This document shows positions 1,754 through 19,181 of a stretch of DNA of 64,000 nt, in pieces. The stretch covers positions 54,324,373 through 54,388,372 of the forward strand of contig OX638369.1 of NCBI GenBank assembly GCA_951812925.1, given 5' to 3'. A program made the translations under genes and the position numbers. The first letter of the stretch is position 1; each line of letters starts with the position of its first letter. A model generated the notes under the pieces. The model was not told the DNA's origin. It did no database searches and saw nothing but the letters and a program-made list of their open reading frames with translations. This DNA is from Calliopum simillimum. Taxonomy: Eukaryota > Arthropoda > Insecta > Diptera > Lauxaniidae.

Positions 1754-1769
1754 ATCGATTTTCTTAAAT
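1754..1769. repeat. Target-site duplication, left, of the hammerhead array
   Basis: ATCGATTTTCTTAAAT, identical to 5459-5474. The paralogous empty site at about 27013-27028 has one such stretch (2 differences), so this is a true duplication made on insertion. Confidence 0.88.
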
Positions 1770-1940
1770 TTAAGAATTTTTTAAGTGTGTTACTTAATGA
1801 CATTTTATATTGAAAATTGATTTTATTTTAATTGAACTTTTAGTCATATATTTGCAAAGATCGATTTACATATAAATCTATCAATGCATTTTCTAACACA
1901 TAATTATGACAAATCAAGGAACGGATTAAAAAACACGGCT

Positions 1941-1987
1941 ATAGTGACATATGTTTCGTCTTTCGCCACAAAGACTCATCAGACTAT
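1941..1987 (-). ncRNA. Hammerhead ribozyme, inverted copy
   Basis: The reverse complement shows the same core as the plus copies: ATAGT stem I strand, CTGATGA, stem II GTCTTT/AAAGAC, GAA, stem III ACATATGT, cleavage-site C, and closing strand ACTAT. All core residues are kept. Confidence 0.9.
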
Positions 1988-2080
1988 TTTTGTTGTGATT
2001 ATAATTATATTTATTTTACTAAATTAATTATAATTGAAAAATTGCAAGTTTGAAAACTTTTTGTGTTTTTGGCCTGGGCG

Positions 2081-2134
2081 TGAGTTGAACCAAGGAACTC
2101 GCGGTCGGTAGCAGAAGTCGTTACCACTGCACCA
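2081..2134 (-). promoter_or_regulatory. tRNA-like Pol III A and B boxes, inverted copy
   Basis: On the minus strand the A box is TGGTGCAGTGG (2124-2134) and the B box GGTTCAACTCA (2081-2091), with the same spacing as in the direct units. Confidence 0.65.
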
Positions 2135-2424
2135 GCCTTGCCCGGCTGCGAAGCCGACTTTTGCCAGTTTTGTTTGTGTGTTAATACGTATTGATATATC
2201 ATAATTGTTGTTTTGTGTTATTTATTTACTAGGCAAAAAATGCTTAGAATCGTTCATGCAATACGTGAGATTTTTTTGGATCTTTTTTGGAAACGTTTTT
2301 TTTTTTGAATAATTTTTGAAATTTAAAGAATTTTTAAGTGTGTTACTTTATGACATTTATATATTGAAAATTGATTTTTTAATTGAACTTTTAGTCAAAA
2401 GTCGGCTTCGCAGCCGGGCAAGGC

Positions 2425-2478
2425 TGGTGCAGTGGTAACGACTTCTGCTACCAACCTGGAGGTTCTTGGTTCAATTCC
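2425..2478 (+). promoter_or_regulatory. tRNA-like Pol III internal promoter, unit 1
   Basis: A box TGGTGCAGTGG (2425-2435) fits TRGYNNARNNG exactly. B box GGTTCAATTCC (2468-2478) differs once from GGTTCGANTCC. The flanks GCCGGGC and GCCCAGGC can pair like a weak acceptor stem. No proper anticodon arm is visible, so this is a tRNA-derived promoter and not a tRNA gene. Confidence 0.7.
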
Positions 2479-2571
2479 CGCCCAGGCCAAAAACACAAAA
2501 AGTTTTCAAACTTGCAATTTTTCAATTATAATTAATTTAGTAAAATAAATATAATTATAATTACAACAAAA

Positions 2572-2618
2572 ATAGTCTGATGAGTCTTTGTGGCGAAAGA
2601 CGAAACATATGTCACTAT
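2572..2618 (+). ncRNA. Hammerhead ribozyme, unit 1 (type I)
   Basis: Stem I strand ATAGT; core CTGATGA; stem II GTCTTT, loop GTGGCG, AAAGAC; core GAA; stem III ACATATGT; cleavage-site C at 2613; stem I return strand ACTAT. Every invariant core base is present, so self-cleavage after 2613 is expected. Stem III has only 2-3 bp in a monomer, but ACATATGT is its own reverse complement and gives 8 bp in a dimer. Confidence 0.92.
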
Positions 2619-2966
2619 AGCCGTGTTTTTAATCCGTTCCTTGATTTGTCATAATTATGTGTTAGAAAATGCATTGATAGATTTATATGTAAGTCGATCT
2701 TTGCAAATATATGACTAAAAGTTCAATTAAAAAATCAATTTTCTATATATAAAATGTCATTAAGTTACACACTTAAAAATTCTTAAAGTTATTTGGGAGA
2801 ACACGCCCTGATAAGGTGGAAACACCTGCAATCGGTATTGAATTTGTTCCAAAGGAACAACTATACCAAATATCAATAAATAACACAAAACAACAATTAT
2901 GATATATCAATACGTATTAACACACAAGCAAAACTGGCAAAAGTCGGCTTCGCAGCCGGGCAAGGC

Positions 2967-3020
2967 TGGTGCAGTGGTAGCGACTTCTGCTACCAACCGC
3001 GAGTTCCTTGGTTCGACTCA
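2967..3020 (+). promoter_or_regulatory. tRNA-like A/B boxes, unit 2
   Basis: A box TGGTGCAGTGG (2967-2977); B box GGTTCGACTCA (3010-3020), one mismatch to consensus. Confidence 0.7.
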
Positions 3021-3114
3021 CGCCCAGGCCAAAAAACACAAAAAGTTTTCAAACTTGCAATTTTTCAATTATAATTAATTTAGTAAAATAAATATAATTA
3101 TAATTACAACAAAA

Positions 3115-3161
3115 ATAGTCTGATGAGTCTTTGTGGCGAAAGACGAAACATATGTCACTAT
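3115..3161 (+). ncRNA. Hammerhead ribozyme, unit 2
   Basis: Identical to the unit 1 ribozyme; predicted cleavage after 3156. Confidence 0.92.
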
Positions 3162-3509
3162 AGCCGTGTTTTTAATCCGTTCCTTGATTTGTCATAATTA
3201 TGTGTTAGAAAATGCATTGATAGATTTATATGTAAGTCGATCTTTGCAAATATATGACTAAAAGTTCAATTAAAAAATCAATTTTCTATATATAAAATGT
3301 CATTAAGTTACACACTTAAAAATTCTTAAAGTTATTTGGGAGAACACGCCCTGATAAGGTGGAAACACCTGCAATCGGTATTGAATTTGTTCCAAAGGAA
3401 CAACTATACCAAATATCAATAAATAACACAAAACAACAATTATGATATATCAATACGTATTAACACACAAGCAAAACTGGCAAAAGTCGGCTTCGCAGCC
3501 GGGCAAGGC

Positions 3510-3563
3510 TGGTGCAGTGGTAGCGACTTCTGCTACCAACCGCGAGTTCCTTGGTTCGACTCA
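3510..3563 (+). promoter_or_regulatory. tRNA-like A/B boxes, unit 3
   Basis: A box 3510-3520 and B box 3553-3563, same sequences as unit 2. Confidence 0.7.
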
Positions 3564-3657
3564 CGCCCAGGCCAAAAAACACAAAAAGTTTTCAAACTTG
3601 CAATTTTTCAATTATAATTAATTTAGTAAAATAAATATAATTATAATTACAACAAAA

Positions 3658-3704
3658 ATAGTCTGATGAGTCTTTGTGGCGAAAGACGAAACATATGTCA
3701 CTAT
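3658..3704 (+). ncRNA. Hammerhead ribozyme, unit 3
   Basis: Identical to the unit 1 ribozyme; predicted cleavage after 3699. Confidence 0.92.
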
Positions 3705-4052
3705 AGCCGTGTTTTTAATCCGTTCCTTGATTTGTCATAATTATGTGTTAGAAAATGCATTGATAGATTTATATGTAAGTCGATCTTTGCAAATATATGA
3801 CTAAAAGTTCAATTAAAAAATCAATTTTCTATATATAAAATGTCATTAAGTTACACACTTAAAAATTCTTAAAGTTATTTGGGAGAACACGCCCTGATAA
3901 GGTGGAAACACCTGCAATCGGTATTGAATTTGTTCCAAAGGAACAACTATACCAAATATCAATAAATAACACAAAACAACAATTATGATATATCAATACG
4001 TATTAACACACAAGCAAAACTGGCAAAAGTCGGCTTCGCAGCCGGGCAAGGC

Positions 4053-4106
4053 TGGTGCAGTGGTAGCGACTTCTGCTACCAACCGCGAGTTCCTTGGTTC
4101 GACTCA
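4053..4106 (+). promoter_or_regulatory. tRNA-like A/B boxes, unit 4
   Basis: A box 4053-4063 and B box 4096-4106, same sequences as unit 2. Confidence 0.7.
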
Positions 4107-4200
4107 CGCCCAGGCCAAAAAACACAAAAAGTTTTCAAACTTGCAATTTTTCAATTATAATTAATTTAGTAAAATAAATATAATTATAATTACAACAAAA

Positions 4201-4247
4201 ATAGTCTGATGAGTCTTTGTGGCGAAAGACGAAACATATGTCACTAT
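4201..4247 (+). ncRNA. Hammerhead ribozyme, unit 4
   Basis: Identical to the unit 1 ribozyme; predicted cleavage after 4242. Confidence 0.92.
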
Positions 4248-4595
4248 AGCCGTGTTTTTAATCCGTTCCTTGATTTGTCATAATTATGTGTTAGAAAATG
4301 CATTGATAGATTTATATGTAAGTCGATCTTTGCAAATATATGACTAAAAGTTCAATTAAAAAATCAATTTTCTATATATAAAATGTCATTAAGTTACACA
4401 CTTAAAAATTCTTAAAGTTATTTGGGAGAACACGCCCTGATAAGGTGGAAACACCTGCAATCGGTATTGAATTTGTTCCAAAGGAACAACTATACCAAAT
4501 ATCAATAAATAACACAAAACAACAATTATGATATATCAATACGTATTAACACACAAGCAAAACTGGCAAAAGTCGGCTTCGCAGCCGGGCAAGGC

Positions 4596-4649
4596 TGGTG
4601 CAGTGGTAGCGACTTCTGCTACCAACCGCGAGTTCCTTGGTTCGACTCA
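4596..4649 (+). promoter_or_regulatory. tRNA-like A/B boxes, unit 5
   Basis: A box 4596-4606 and B box 4639-4649, same sequences as unit 2. Confidence 0.7.
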
Positions 4650-4743
4650 CGCCCAGGCCAAAAAACACAAAAAGTTTTCAAACTTGCAATTTTTCAATTA
4701 TAATTAATTTAGTAAAATAAATATAATTATAATTACAACAAAA

Positions 4744-4790
4744 ATAGTCTGATGAGTCTTTGTGGCGAAAGACGAAACATATGTCACTAT
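4744..4790 (+). ncRNA. Hammerhead ribozyme, unit 5
   Basis: Identical to the unit 1 ribozyme; predicted cleavage after 4785. Confidence 0.92.
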
Positions 4791-5145
4791 AGCCGTGTTT
4801 TTAATCCGTTCCTTGATTTGTCATAATTATGTGTTAGAAAATGCATTGATAGATTTATATGTAAGTCGATCTTTGCAAATATATGACTAAAAGTTCAATT
4901 AAAATAAAATCAATTTTCAATATAAAATGTCATTAAGTAACACACTTAAAAAATTCTTAAAGTTATTTGGGAGAACACGCCCTGATAAGGTGGAAACACC
5001 TGCAATCGGTATTGAATTTGTTCCAAAGGAACAACTATACCAAATATCAATAAATAACACAAAAAAAACAACAATTATGATATATCAATACGTATTAACA
5101 CACAAATAAAACTGGCAAAAAGTCGGCTTCGCAGCCGGGCAAGGC

Positions 5146-5199
5146 TGGTGCAGTGGTAACGACTTCTGCTACCAACCTGGAGATCCTTGGTTCGTCTCC
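5146..5199 (+). promoter_or_regulatory. tRNA-like A/B boxes, terminal unit
   Basis: A box TGGTGCAGTGG (5146-5156); B box GGTTCGTCTCC (5189-5199), one mismatch to consensus. This unit has other differences from the internal ones. Confidence 0.7.
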
Positions 5200-5292
5200 C
5201 GCCCAGACCAAAAACACAAAAAGTTTTCAAACTTGCAATTTTTCAATTATAATTAATTTAGTAAAATAAATATAATTATAATTACAACAAAA

Positions 5293-5339
5293 ATAGTCTG
5301 ATGAGTCTTTGTGGCGAAAGACGAAACATATGTCACTAT
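5293..5339 (+). ncRNA. Hammerhead ribozyme, terminal unit
   Basis: Core and stems identical to the other copies; predicted cleavage after 5334. It is followed by the 3' tail ending AAGTTCAATTAAAATAAA at the insertion edge. Confidence 0.92.
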
Positions 5340-5458
5340 AGCCGTGTTTTTAATCCGTTCCTTGATTTGTCATAATTATGTGTTAGAAAAATGCATTGAT
5401 AGATTTATATGTAAATCGATCTTTGCAAATATATGACTAAAAGTTCAATTAAAATAAA

Positions 5459-5474
5459 ATCGATTTTCTTAAAT
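5459..5474. repeat. Target-site duplication, right, of the hammerhead array
   Basis: ATCGATTTTCTTAAAT, identical to 1754-1769; family A continues directly after it. Confidence 0.88.
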
Positions 5475-15808: not shown

Positions 15809-16023
15809 ATACTTACACCGCTTGGAGTAAATATAGGCTTGAGCTTAAGAAATTTAAAACTTTTCTGCGTAAAGCTAAATGTTTGAGCTGGCAAGAGCAG
15901 TGTACTAAAGTAGAAAGTACCACTGGAGCTGCCAGGCTACGCAAAATATAATCCAAAAAAGAAATTTCACATCCATTAATCCAAAAAGACAACGGGGAGT
16001 GGGTTGCAGATGAGCGAGAAACG

Positions 16024-16752
16024 GTGGAGGTTCTTTTGGTCTGTTTTGGCCCAAATGGTCTGTTTCCAGCCATGCTTCAGCATGCTGGTAAATGTTTTAC
16101 TGCAATCCTTATTACTCTCTTTGAAGGATGTATACCTACTCGTAAAAGTGGAAAATCCAGTCACGTCAAAGTCAAAGATTTTCGACCTAGCAGCCTAACT
16201 TCCTTCATTTTAAAAACTTTTGAAAGAATTCTTGATGCTTACATTAGAGATAAGTTGCCCATAAATGCTATCTCAAGCTGTCAACATGCTTACCAAAAAG
16301 GAAAATCCGTGGACATAGCCCTTCACTCTGTTGTTCAAGCTATAGAGAGTGCTCTACATTTTCAAGAATACACTCTGGCTGCTTTTTTGGACATAGAGGG
16401 CGCCTTCAATAATGTGAGCACCAATGCAATCTTGGAAGCTTTAACTAAAGCAGACGTCAACCTTTCGATTCGTGAATGGATTGAAACACTTTTAAGTAGT
16501 CATATAATTAAAGTGGAATGGGGGCTGAGTGTCTGCCTAAAGTATGCAACTAGAGGTACTCCACAAGGGGGTGTTTTGTCACCACTTCTGTGGATAATTG
16601 CTATCAACCCCATCTTGCATACACTTAATAAAAAGGGTGTCATAGTCGTAGCCTACGCTGATGACATTGTTATTCTAGTCAAAGGTAAATTTCTAGACAT
16701 AATGAGTGAACTTCTAGAAAGTGCTCTCGCAATAATAAGCAAATGGGCTTAA
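16024..16752 (+). pseudogene. LOA ORF2, reverse transcriptase domain
   Basis: Contains the RT blocks in order: DFRPSSLTSFILKTFER, CQHAYQKGKSVDIALH, AAFLDIEGAFNNV (first catalytic Asp), GTPQGGVLSPLLW, and AYADDIVIL (catalytic Asp pair, 16653-16664). A segment of about 100 residues usually found before GPNGLFPAML is missing. The frame is open from about 15950, so the first methionine is not meaningful. The catalytic residues are intact, but the reading frame around it is broken. Confidence 0.82.
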
Positions 16753-16780
16753 CGTTAACCCTTCAAAAACAGAACTGGTT

Positions 16781-17038
16781 TTGTTCACAAGGAAACACAA
16801 AATTCCTGTTTTTAGGAATATTTGTCTAGATAATATCAAAATACCTCTATCTAATGAAGCAAAATTCTTGGGAACAGTCTTAGACCGCAAACTAAACTGG
16901 AAACCTAATATAGAAAATCGTATAAAAAAGGCAAACGGCGCTTTCTTTGTATGTAAAAAATTCTACGGAATCACTTGGGGCTTTGACCCTAAAATCACCA
17001 TCTGGATCTACACTGCAATAGTTAGACTGGTGCCCTGA
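16781..17038 (+). pseudogene. LOA ORF2, RT thumb and connection
   Basis: Continues the RT after a frameshift at about 16752 (NVNPSKTELVLFTRK just before). AKFLGTVLDRKLNW is the typical post-YADD block. A stop at about 17036 and a deletion follow before the RNase H part. Confidence 0.75.
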
Positions 17039-17106
17039 GGTCTACCTCTTCAGAATCCTTAAACGCTATACCTTTTCTATTACCAATTGATCTCTTTGCC
17101 AAGGGA

Positions 17107-17685
17107 GTGGCTTACAATACTATACTTAGGCTTAAAGAATCGAGGGGCCTTAAGCTAAGGCCTTACGGACACAGTAACGTAGGTAATATTGAGAGTATTA
17201 CTACTGATTACATGATTCCTAAGCTTTCTATGGAGAAAAGATTTTTGGTCACATTCCCGTCTAGAGCATTCTGGAACACACGAGGTGAAGATCCAACCGA
17301 AGTAATAAACGTATACACAGATGGCTCTAAATCAGATAATGGGGTTGGAGTAGGTTTCTATGTCTCCAACTCACACGAAGAATACTCATTTAAATTGCCA
17401 GATGGGTGCAGCATTTTCCAAGCGGAAATTTTCGCGATTAACAAAGCGGTCGATTACCTTAACGAAAGTGTAAGCGAGATGGAAATTGCTCTATACGTCT
17501 ATAGTCAAGCTGCTTTAAAAGCTTTAAAATCAAACTTTATTAAATCAAAGACAGTTTTTGAATGTTTTACCGCTTTAACTTTCCTTAGTGAAAACAACCA
17601 GGTATCCCTTCAGTGGGTGCCGTCGCATTGCGAAATTTTAGGAAATGAAATGGCAGATCTATCAGCAAAAACGGGTGCTCTTTAA
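17107..17685 (+). pseudogene. LOA ORF2, RNase H domain with a lost catalytic Asp
   Basis: An RNase H fold: VYTDGSKSDNGVG (Asp 1), SIFQAEIFAI (Glu), then YVYSQAALKAL where the usual DSQ is YSQ (codon TAT at 17500-17502), and GNEMADLSA (last Asp). VPSHCEI replaces the usual VPGHxxI. The Asp to Tyr change alone would inactivate the nuclease. Confidence 0.8.
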
Positions 17686-17748
17686 GAAGATCAACACATT
17701 AAAATTCCAGCACCGCTTCAATATTTCTTTTCTTTATAGAACGCTCAA

Positions 17749-18180
17749 ATGTTCTCAGTAGCGAATAGACGCTGGAAACAATCCCACACTAGCGCTATAA
17801 CAAAGTATTTTTGGCCTTGTTTTCACAAAGCAGATTATTCCAAATATTTATTATCTCTAACGAGGAGTGAGTGCAGCCTGCTGACTAGAGTTGTGACTGG
17901 TCATTGTCTAATTGGTCATCATGCCTTTAGACTGGGCATAGTCTCCAACAACTGGTGCAGAAACTGTCACGAGCCTGAGGAAGAGGAAACAATTGAACAC
18001 CTTTTATGTCTTTGCCCTGCGCTTGTAAGAACTAGACTGAAATGCTTTGGTCAGCCGTTTTTTAATTCCTTAAAAGAACTCACTAAAATTCACCTAAGTG
18101 ACATTAAAAGATTCGCTTTGCTTACAGGATCCTTCAGTTTGGACAAACACCATATTGAAAGAACCATAGACGTTAATAAG
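17749..18180 (+). pseudogene. LOA ORF2, C-terminal Cys/His region
   Basis: RWKQSHTSAITKYFWP, LTRVVTGHCLIGHHAFRLGI and then NWCRNCHEPEEEETIEHLLC, a CxxC...H...C knuckle typical of the C-terminus of LOA/Jockey ORF2. After about 18180 the frame runs on into the next element. Confidence 0.75.
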
Positions 18181-18214
18181 AGAGTTTGTAGTATCACTAT
18201 GGACCCTTGCGACA

Positions 18215-19181
18215 GTGTCGAAAAATGTGTTACACAACGGGTTGTTGTCACCAACATTCGCCACTAATTCGGGCGTACGGCAGGGGTGTTTACTATCACC
18301 ATTTCTCTTCCTTATCGTTCTTGATGATATCCTAGATAAAGCTCTTAATAAGGCCAGAAGGGGTATCCAATGGAACTTTACCGAACATCTAGAAGATCTC
18401 GACTATGCTGACGACATTTGCCTCTTATCGTCCAAACACTCAGATATGCAAAGCAAAATTGAAGACCTTGTCTTGGAATCACAAAAGGCCGGTCCAAAAA
18501 TCAACGTATCCAAGACTAAAAGCATGAAGCTAAACGCAAGCAGGAATGACATAACGTTTAGATCAGGCAGTGATGACATCGAAAACGTCGATAGCTTCAC
18601 GTTATTTAGGCATCATTATCTCATGGTTGGTGGAGCAAAAGAAGATATCAACTCAAGAATAGCAAAAGCACAAGGCGCGTGTGCCCAACTGAACAAAATA
18701 TGGTCTTCTTCTGTTACATCCACCAAAATGAACGTGCGCATTTTTGATTTGAATGTGAAATTGGTTTTGTTATATGGGTGCGAAACATGGCTTGTTACTG
18801 AACAACTAACGAACAAGCTGCAAGTATTCGTCAACAAATGCTTAAGGCGAATACTAAAGGTTTGGTGGCCTCGAGCTATATCAAATGCCGAGCTACATCA
18901 AAAATGCAATCAGAAGACTATAGCAAATGAGGTAAGTCTGTGCAAATGGAGATGGATTGGTCACACTCTCTGGAAACCAAACAGCGAAGTTTGTCGCCAG
19001 ACTCTTGAGTGGAATCCACAATACAGTAGAGGACGGTGTGGACCCAAAACCAGCTAGAAAAGGTCGTCGGAAAAGGAAATACAAGAATTGGGAAAGTCGT
19101 GGCAAGAGATCAAAGTCATCGCTAGGGATCGCAACAAATGGAAACATCTCATATTGGCCATATGCTCCTCCTAGGCGTTAA
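18215..19181 (+). pseudogene. RTE/CR1-like retrotransposon 3' fragment (RT second half and tail)
   Basis: A frame from about 18215 with GVRQGCLLSPFLFLIVLDDIL, LDYADDICLLS (catalytic site), SKTKSMKLN, KLVLLYGCETWLV, and the typical tail LRRILKVWWPRAISN...KWRWIGHTLWKPN. After a frameshift near 19050 the end KWKHLILAICSS-like is readable to about 19180. The element ends in a TACATACATACA microsatellite (19191-19207). The first RT blocks are absent, so it is 5'-truncated or was cut by the LOA insertion. Not functional. Confidence 0.78.

Follow-up and report, generated by a model that had tools for sequence, protein, structure and literature searches.

A hammerhead-bearing, retrozyme-like element of the fly Calliopum simillimum with the insertion signature of Penelope-like elements

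Short tandem units, each combining a hammerhead ribozyme motif with the A and B boxes of a tRNA-type promoter, form an array in a 64,000-nt stretch of the genome of the lauxaniid fly Calliopum simillimum (GCA_951812925.1, contig OX638369.1; the whole stretch is referred to as the window). A sequence-only reading described the array as a retrozyme-like element that may be copied by a partner reverse transcriptase (RT). This raises the question of what inserts such an element, as the available parts of PMC7229834, PMC7761336 and PMC11722881 name Penelope-like elements (PLEs) or LINEs only as candidate movers of animal retrozymes. Our results support the earlier description and, through the structure of the insertions, indicate PLEs as the class of the partner. 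We propose, with a probability of roughly 0.75, that the element is a nonautonomous metazoan retrozyme that carries a tRNA-type promoter (A/B boxes) of its own and owes its insertion to the RT/GIY-YIG endonuclease of a PLE.

The window element (Table 1) contains seven identical 37-nt hammerhead cores, six on the plus and one on the minus strand, just as the sequence-only reading had them; its 543-bp unit is equally confirmed by the core spacing of 543, 543, 543, 543 and 549 bp. There is no difference among units 2, 3 and 4, whereas units 1, 5 and 6 diverge from unit 2 by 1.7-4.2%; the units of the array are thus mosaic and in part heterogeneous. With a GC content of 33% and a longest ATG-initiated ORF of 59 aa, the unit is non-coding; it contains no RT/GIY-YIG ORF and no LTR, PBS or PPT (the absence of the latter two being judged by reading only). 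The claimed 16-bp target site duplication around the whole array, ATCGATTTTCTTAAAT, is present on both sides and has no other match in the window (0.00 expected). The left part of the element is an inverted arm that meets the plus array head to head; the minus core had been noticed before, the inverted arm as the usual structure of these insertions had been missed.

Table 1. Features of the element in window coordinates; u denotes position in the reference unit (2934-3476)
Feature	Position	Strand	Basis or remark
Left target duplication ATCGATTTTCTTAAAT	1754-1769	.	exact match search
Inverted arm, part 1	1770-2228	-	from long (T, u~398-401) end via hammerhead and tRNA-like part to u485
Hammerhead core of inverted arm	1946-1982	-	exact 37-nt core
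A/B box pair of inverted arm	2081-2134	-	box pattern search
84 bp unmatched to unit, within inverted arm	2229-2312	.	unit comparison
Inverted arm, part 2	2313-2397	-	u~400 to u322; restarts near T site
Whole inverted arm	1770-2397	-	joined head to head to plus array
Direct arm, six units	2396-5458	+	from u5 in unit 1 to the short (S) end at u~350 in unit 6
A box and B box, unit 1	2425-2478	+	box pattern search
Other A/B box pairs	2967-3020, 3510-3563, 4053-4106, 4596-4649, 5146-5199	+	box pattern search
Perfect 543-bp periodicity	2489-4904	+	2416 bp, 4.45 laps; variant sequence on both sides, same arm
Hammerhead core, unit 1	2577-2613	+	exact 37-nt core; predicted cut after 2613
Other plus cores	3120-3156, 3663-3699, 4206-4242, 4749-4785, 5298-5334	+	exact 37-nt core
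S-to-T (tail) interval, u350-u397	3283-3330	+	AC-rich stem-loop u370-386
Structured region downstream of T, u401-480	3334-3413	+	folding; hairpins
Right target duplication ATCGATTTTCTTAAAT	5459-5474	.	exact match search
Whole array	1770-5458		seven cores

The hammerhead is of type I with intact core nucleotides, its stems I, II and III comprising 5, 6 and 2 bp by reading. A loose core pattern gives eight matches in the window (the seven cores, one of them twice) against 0.19 expected from 100 shuffles. In the covariance-model check suggested earlier, Rfam finds Hammerhead_3 at all seven core places with 22.7-24.2 bits, and no window match reaches the gathering score (48.5 for this model), which we ascribe to the poor fit of a type I fold with 2-bp stem III to that model. 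The 51-nt hammerhead region alone is no more stable than its shuffles (z -0.62), and in the predicted fold of the circular unit the hammerhead is not formed. A search of viral contigs with an exact hammerhead 30-mer gave 0 matches. Self-cleavage of the unit RNA and its circular form are proposed from the motif and the arrangement of the copies.

All seven unit copies contain, as claimed, an A and a B box with tRNA-like spacing and no more than one mismatch in either; such pairs occur nowhere else in the 64 kb, and 20 single-base shuffles gave two in total. As ARAGORN calls no tRNA in the window and none of the 11 Rfam rows up to E 10 belongs to a tRNA family, "tRNA-like" refers here to the promoter boxes only; the fold of this region is likewise no more stable than shuffles (z -0.35). 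Judged from the boxes, the element may be transcribed by Pol III. The further suggestion of transcription from each internal promoter across the entire array is open to doubt, as the sense-strand T-runs of each unit (4, 5, 5, 4) could halt Pol III.

Allowing up to three mismatches, the 37-nt core is present 2276 times in the genome (1150 plus, 1126 minus; control 0), dispersed over contigs C1-C6. Copies elsewhere without conserved ribozyme and boxes had been named in advance as evidence against a retrozyme-like element; as far as tested, the copies keep both, with 1478 of the 2276 cores exact and the boxes present in the majority sequence of sampled copies. A neighbouring 37-mer is exact in 1572 of 2957 cases, a comparison that uses one neighbour only and copies that are not independent. 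In the sampled loci described below the hammerhead seems much more strongly conserved than the remaining sequence; as an exact hammerhead match was the selection criterion for these loci, we set this observation aside in favor of the fairer genome-wide one.

The sample consists of 50 chromosome-1 windows, representing 49 insertions, most of them shorter than two units. Two arms with both outer ends assignable to one of two sites, S (u~350) or T (u~397), are present in 34 of the 49 (28 and 6 from two rounds of typing). All 34 are arranged head to head, and in each of them one outer end is S and the other T (two-sided binomial p = 1.2e-10 if the ends were independent). The remaining 15 comprise nine single-arm insertions, five two-arm insertions with one end off S/T and one fragment. 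The arms are joined at variable places, often with an overlap of a few bp and sometimes with extra letters. At least 10 bp are shared by 27 of 31 flank pairs, compared with 3.4% of 930 mismatched pairs, the other four sharing less; the duplications are AT-rich with a median of 13 bp. Between S and T lies a tail interval of about 47 nt with an AC-rich stem-loop (predicted pairing probability 0.62-0.91), and the structured region downstream of T has a z of -2.8 in unit 1 (window 2780-2880).

Eighteen further array loci are also of S/T type, as judged by reading match tables; array loci left untyped are C1:67888133, C2:73881711, C4:49814342, C1:73875249, C3:53426875, C2:67765868, C2:71023422, C1:74284286 and others with one arm only. 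The array loci also include exceptions: C4:72267696 is T/T with no visible duplication, C5:78315781 is S/S with no duplication, and C5:79896414 (L001) combines T with u277. A comparable combination, T with u302, is seen in L041; these last two both have a duplication. An apparent S/S locus, C3:61417597, is part of a larger palindrome and was left out.

Two adjacent RT start sites delimiting a tail, an inverted arm and a target duplication together make up the insertion signature of PLEs, and all are present in the element. According to the available parts of PMC11167929, the internal start of PLE RT is at two neighbouring sites that delimit the tail and lie in an AC-rich stem-loop, and PLEs cut and extend both strands at AT-rich DNA; the tail signature is called unique to PLEs by its authors. 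In the accessible part of PMC3846280, the tail is optional at one of two inverted pLTRs. The same genome contains at least 51 GIY-YIG places and two 841-aa open frames with GIY-YIG. In one C1 copy of an autonomous PLE, the long end is inverted, the 3' end is short, the tail measures about 31 nt and the duplication 14 bp; the retrozyme thus shares its tail signature with a PLE copy whose open frame spans 841 aa. This signature is carried by dozens of insertions (34 sampled, 18 from match tables and that of the window), and open PLE frames exist in the same genome, which bears on the mover of retrozymes. The element itself is no PLE; the resemblance concerns its insertion. When it was compared with eight PLE loci (L049-L056; L077 and L078 left out), the only shared sequence was a cousin of the element in the flank of L052 (79% over u58-218, hammerhead broken), and we therefore name the partner, probably one such PLE, at the level of class and not of family. 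Scanning the fetched loci with a regex for PLE RT motifs gave a single, chance-like match.

The proposed cycle would begin with RNA that arises at the internal promoter or through read-through transcription and whose multimers the hammerhead may cut into 543-nt units that close to circles. A PLE protein, suggested by the signature, would make cuts with a stagger of about 13 bp in DNA as AT-rich as the duplications found. Both cut ends could then prime reverse transcription inside the RNA, at S and T on either side of the AC-rich stem-loop, in agreement with the paired ends. The RT may run several laps, presumably on a circle, and may switch templates, as the identical laps and mosaic units of the window suggest; finally, two cDNAs would be joined head to head, at places that vary among the observed insertions. 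Identical units could also stem from later homogenization.

The S/T rule might reflect a concerted reaction, a reading we put forward tentatively: two RT subunits, acting on a single pair of RNA sites, would extend each target strand from a different tail start with retrozyme circles as template, and one insertion would record two convergent rolling reverse transcriptions. If so, this would be a retrozyme with both its Pol III-type promoter and the PLE machinery visible in its own sequence. The pairing predicts different start sites for the two strands, of which the in vitro study saw nothing in the part available (PMC11167929), and so bears on PLE insertion in general.

One alternative concerns origin and is compatible with the proposal of a PLE-inserted retrozyme. 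The region from ribozyme to T could be a solo pLTR, from a PLE family outside those read, that captured a tRNA promoter. Its end structure is the same as that of PLE pLTRs, HHR-like motifs are found in PLE flanks of this genome, and retrozymes have been proposed to be reduced PLEs (PMC11722881, available part). No pLTR match appears in the eight PLE loci, and a hammerhead search with alternative stem III finds 19 places, 18 of them retrozyme variants and one PLE-like (control 1); we regard this descent as conceivable, with the odds somewhat against it.

A second alternative keeps the PLE as inserting agent and replaces the ribozyme-made circle with a linear template, either a Pol III transcript or a read-through multimer; multimeric transcripts, or unequal exchange at a later time, would account for the tandem units, and the hammerhead would serve otherwise or be in the course of loss. 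One PLE studied in vitro uses unprocessed RNA, with no need for ribozyme cleavage (PMC11167929, available part), the window units are partly heterogeneous and mosaic, and in the predicted fold of the circle the ribozyme is hidden. Against this stand the exact laps over 2416 bp, the better preservation of the core than of the one neighbouring 37-mer, and the position of S and T downstream of the ribozyme cut: a linear monomer cut off at u223 would not provide them, a circle or uncut RNA could. On balance we consider a linear template rather less likely than not.

The element resembles tRNA-derived SINEs in its A and B boxes, its lack of coding capacity and its dispersal, and differs from them in its ribozyme, its arrays, its two defined outward ends, apparently in place of a single LINE-like 3' tail, and its lack of a tRNA fold or family match (ARAGORN, Rfam, folding). 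The view that a LINE mobilized such a SINE and that ordinary twin priming produced the inverted arm could draw on the boxes, on duplications in the LINE range, on LINE fragments near the window element and on A-runs at one end of a few copies (L011, L013, L061). Twin priming is expected to leave an inverted arm with a random outer end. The two fixed outer ends, one each in 34 of 34 typed two-arm insertions, lead us to reject it as very improbable, and a consistent poly-A end is lacking and six units lie in one arm of the window element. Still less credible is an ordinary satellite grown by unequal crossing-over with incidental ribozyme and boxes, which would fit the identical tandem units and is rejected on account of 2276 cores spread over C1-C6 in mostly less-than-two-unit insertions with fixed outer ends and their own duplication in 27 of 31, although such exchange may still add units later. 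A DNA transposon is rejected on the variable centre and unit number.

Among known systems, the element agrees with the metazoan non-LTR retrozymes of Cervera and de la Pena 2020 (PMC7229834) in the type I hammerhead, the short non-coding low-GC tandem repeats, the many dispersed copies and target duplications above 4 bp, and differs in its length, 543 nt against RNAs of about 170-400 nt, and in the paired S/T head-to-head ends, none being described in the part of that paper available. With PLEs of the Penelope/Poseidon clade, as far as the available sources describe them, it shares the head-to-head inverted arm, target duplications, AT-rich targets, a tail at one end (optional, ~31 nt in PLEs) and the minimal type I hammerhead (in the pLTR of PLEs); unlike them, it has a unit without RT/GIY-YIG ORF and a tail interval of ~47 nt. 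The schistosome Sm-alpha SINE-like repeat, from another host phylum, likewise combines a hammerhead and a Pol III-type promoter in a short repeat; we know of no S/T head-to-head insertion structure for it.

Inner ends were taken by hand from BLAST ends (84 ends, excluding the L022 minus end, L033, L048 and the window). Four of them fall at the predicted ribozyme 5' end (u223-225), with p = 0.0013 for that place alone and 0.4 when all places are scanned. Inner ends cluster near u6 (L009, L019, L066 and the window), an observation made post hoc.

The sequence between 1754 and 5474 of the window is a single insertion bounded by perfect 16-bp direct repeats (see table). The sequence-only reading, that of a retrozyme-like array combining hammerheads with a tRNA-like Pol III promoter, had counted seven cores, six of them plus and one minus. 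All of them were found, and the observation is real and not due to chance, the insertion holding more than was seen at that time. LINE fragments lie directly to its left (378-1567; DUF4780 and Exo_endo_phos_2) and further to its right (15952-19057; RVT_1, RNase H and DUF6451).

Features of the insertion and of its reference unit (u, position in the unit)
Feature	Position	Remark
Inverted arm	window 1770-2397	includes an 84-bp stretch without match to the unit
Direct arm	window 2396-5458	six units
Reference unit	window 2934-3476	543 bp, u1-u543
A box	u34	
B box	u77	
Hammerhead core	u187-223	predicted cut after u223
Structured region	u~400-480	z -2.8 in unit 1

The element belongs to a large family in the same assembly (G000; 690 Mb, 334 contigs). 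The full unit gave 201 matches from the scoring of 40 of 1627 candidates, those listed lying on contigs C1-C6. The hammerhead 37-mer is present genome-wide in 2276 copies with at most three mismatches, 1478 of them exact (copies of the motif, not loci), and its reversed control in none; the neighbouring 37-mer u241-277 has 2957 such copies, 1572 exact. The exact share is 65% for the ribozyme versus 53% for its neighbour, with z of 8.6 overstating the certainty since the copies are related.

Outer ends of the insertions were typed at two sites, S (around u350) and T (around u397). We took 50 windows (40 + 10) around exact hammerhead matches on C1, following the order of the listing from its start. 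By reading, these present 49 insertions: loci L037 and L038 are one retrozyme copy split by a later insert of about 5 kb, L043 is one copy interrupted (3264-5411) by a later insert of about 2.1 kb whose ends resemble inverted repeats, and L017 holds a local duplication, whose two copies count as one. Ends were taken from BLAST and typed after being seen (S, u340-368; T, u386-408); L065 was typed S with a BLAST end at u338, its last letters being u341-350. In all 34 two-arm insertions with both outer ends typed, one end was S and the other T. The other sampled insertions comprise nine with a single arm (L009, L015, L017, L020, L032, L047, L059, L062, L063), five two-arm insertions with one end off the ranges (L014, in which the left end, u384, falls just beyond T, L041, L046, L048, L060) and one fragment (L033). 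The T arm was on the left in 16 and on the right in 12 of the first 28 S/T insertions. Eighteen more array loci read S/T from match tables, in which others were untypable; three loci depart from this, C4:72267696 (T/T, without visible duplication), C5:78315781 (S/S, ends without duplication) and C5:79896414 (T/u277, 12-bp duplication). At G000:C3:61417537-61419930 the two flanks of a retrozyme locus are mutual inverted copies, forming a larger palindrome that is either natural or assembly-made.

Flanks share at least 10 bp (median 13) in 27 of 31 two-arm insertions, namely the 28 S/T insertions, L014, L041 and that of the window, against 3.4% of 930 mismatched flank pairs from different loci. 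Outside this controlled set, three further arrays have duplications of 12-13 bp, and 6 of ten later windows share at least 10 bp. Inner ends are scattered across the unit; by eye, arm junctions often overlap by a few bp and some carry extra letters. Of 84 inner ends, 4 fell at u223-225, where the 5' end left by the ribozyme is predicted and which had been named beforehand, versus 0.46 expected (p 0.0013; 0.008 for u222-226, 0.4 scan-wide). Inner arm ends at u5-6, noticed post hoc in L009, L019, L066 and the window, may mark where the primary transcript begins.

At all seven core places Hammerhead_3 matches lie below the Rfam threshold, none of the window hammerheads reaching the gathering score. 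Folded alone, neither the hammerhead region (z -0.62) nor the tRNA-like region (z -0.35) is better than shuffles; the circular unit is (z -4.9, 60 shuffles), in a predicted fold which hides the ribozyme. Transcription from the tRNA-like boxes, as proposed earlier, is plausible, while the accompanying long Pol III read-through of the array is argued against by T-runs of 4-5 in each unit. A short Pol III transcript or, alternatively, Pol II read-through is a possible RNA source. Because a T-run of 4 at u349-352 coincides with S, this site could alternatively be a Pol III end.

The predicted cut lies upstream of S by about 130 nt and of T by about 175 nt, so that a cleaved linear monomer is not usable as template from its 3' end. 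The template for reverse transcriptase would be a circle, or else uncut RNA, and repeated laps of one circle, combined with template switches, would produce tandem identical units. Perfect 543-bp periodicity extends over 2416 bp of the array with variant sequence on both sides in the same arm, the pattern expected of such laps and switches; later homogenisation is another possible origin of the identical units. The 84 bp without unit match (2229-2312) divide the inverted arm in two, and its second piece restarts near T, as though the template had switched to another RNA and back.

The outer ends recall Penelope-like elements (PLEs). In one PLE studied in vitro, according to passages of its report, reverse transcription starts internally at two adjacent sites, located within an AC-rich stem-loop and delimiting a genomic tail; cleavage and extension affect both strands of the target, and AT-rich DNA is favoured (PMC11167929). 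Inserts of rotifer PLEs are described, in an excerpt, as completed by an inverted pLTR, with an optional 31-bp tail at one of the inverted pLTRs and duplications of 8-10 bp (PMC3846280). The retrozyme likewise combines AT-rich duplications and an inverted arm with a tail that is confined to one end, and S and T enclose an AC-rich stem-loop (u370-386, pairing probability 0.62-0.91). The element is classed as inserted in PLE fashion and not itself a PLE. Judged by the features tested, it is a variant of the metazoan retrozymes that would work like one, and its circular RNA is predicted. Schistosome Sm-alpha offers a comparison system.

Animal retrozymes are introduced in one source, seen in part, as non-LTR elements of about 170-400 nt with type I hammerheads, PLEs being a strong candidate for moving them (PMC7229834); a section of a review has them seemingly without promoters and without a motif revealing their partner (PMC7761336), and LINEs or PLEs are still the candidates named in part of a 2024 review (PMC11722881). 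Among the listed titles and abstract openings of the open-licence literature, neither a tRNA-promoted retrozyme nor paired PLE ends in a retrozyme is reported. The element makes both the link between retrozymes and PLEs and the rule of two insertion sites directly testable, which gives it high interest.

In the same genome GIY-YIG matches occur at 51 or more places, and the open frames reach up to 841 aa; two frames near 612-622 aa on small contigs are, we guess, perhaps bacterial UvrC. Two copies of the 841-aa PLE, compared at their ends, are 99.5% alike over 629 bp. That on C1 has an inverted 5' arm with a long end, a 3' pLTR with a short end, a tail of about 31 nt and a 14-bp duplication; that on C5 has a long 3' end, and neither inverted arm nor duplication was found within the stretch read. 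By reading, the pLTR carries a motif resembling a hammerhead, in which stem II is preceded by one additional base. Eight PLE loci gave no match to the retrozyme except a cousin element in one flank (L052, G000:C118:46930-47994). This cousin follows a GIY-YIG frame and resembles the unit at 79% over u58-218; it has tRNA-like boxes, and its hammerhead is broken. Another of the eight loci, L056 (G000:C2:128913388-128914400), has a minimal hammerhead-like motif, CCTGATGAGGTCAACGATTTGTTGACGAAACGTCG, at about 499-535, downstream of its GIY-YIG frame. Opposite-orientation GIY-YIG pairs, as expected of head-to-head PLE copies, lie close together at C2:48387135/48387972, C2:128911501/128913193, C5:64069088/64071562 and C3:12136299/12136751 of G000.
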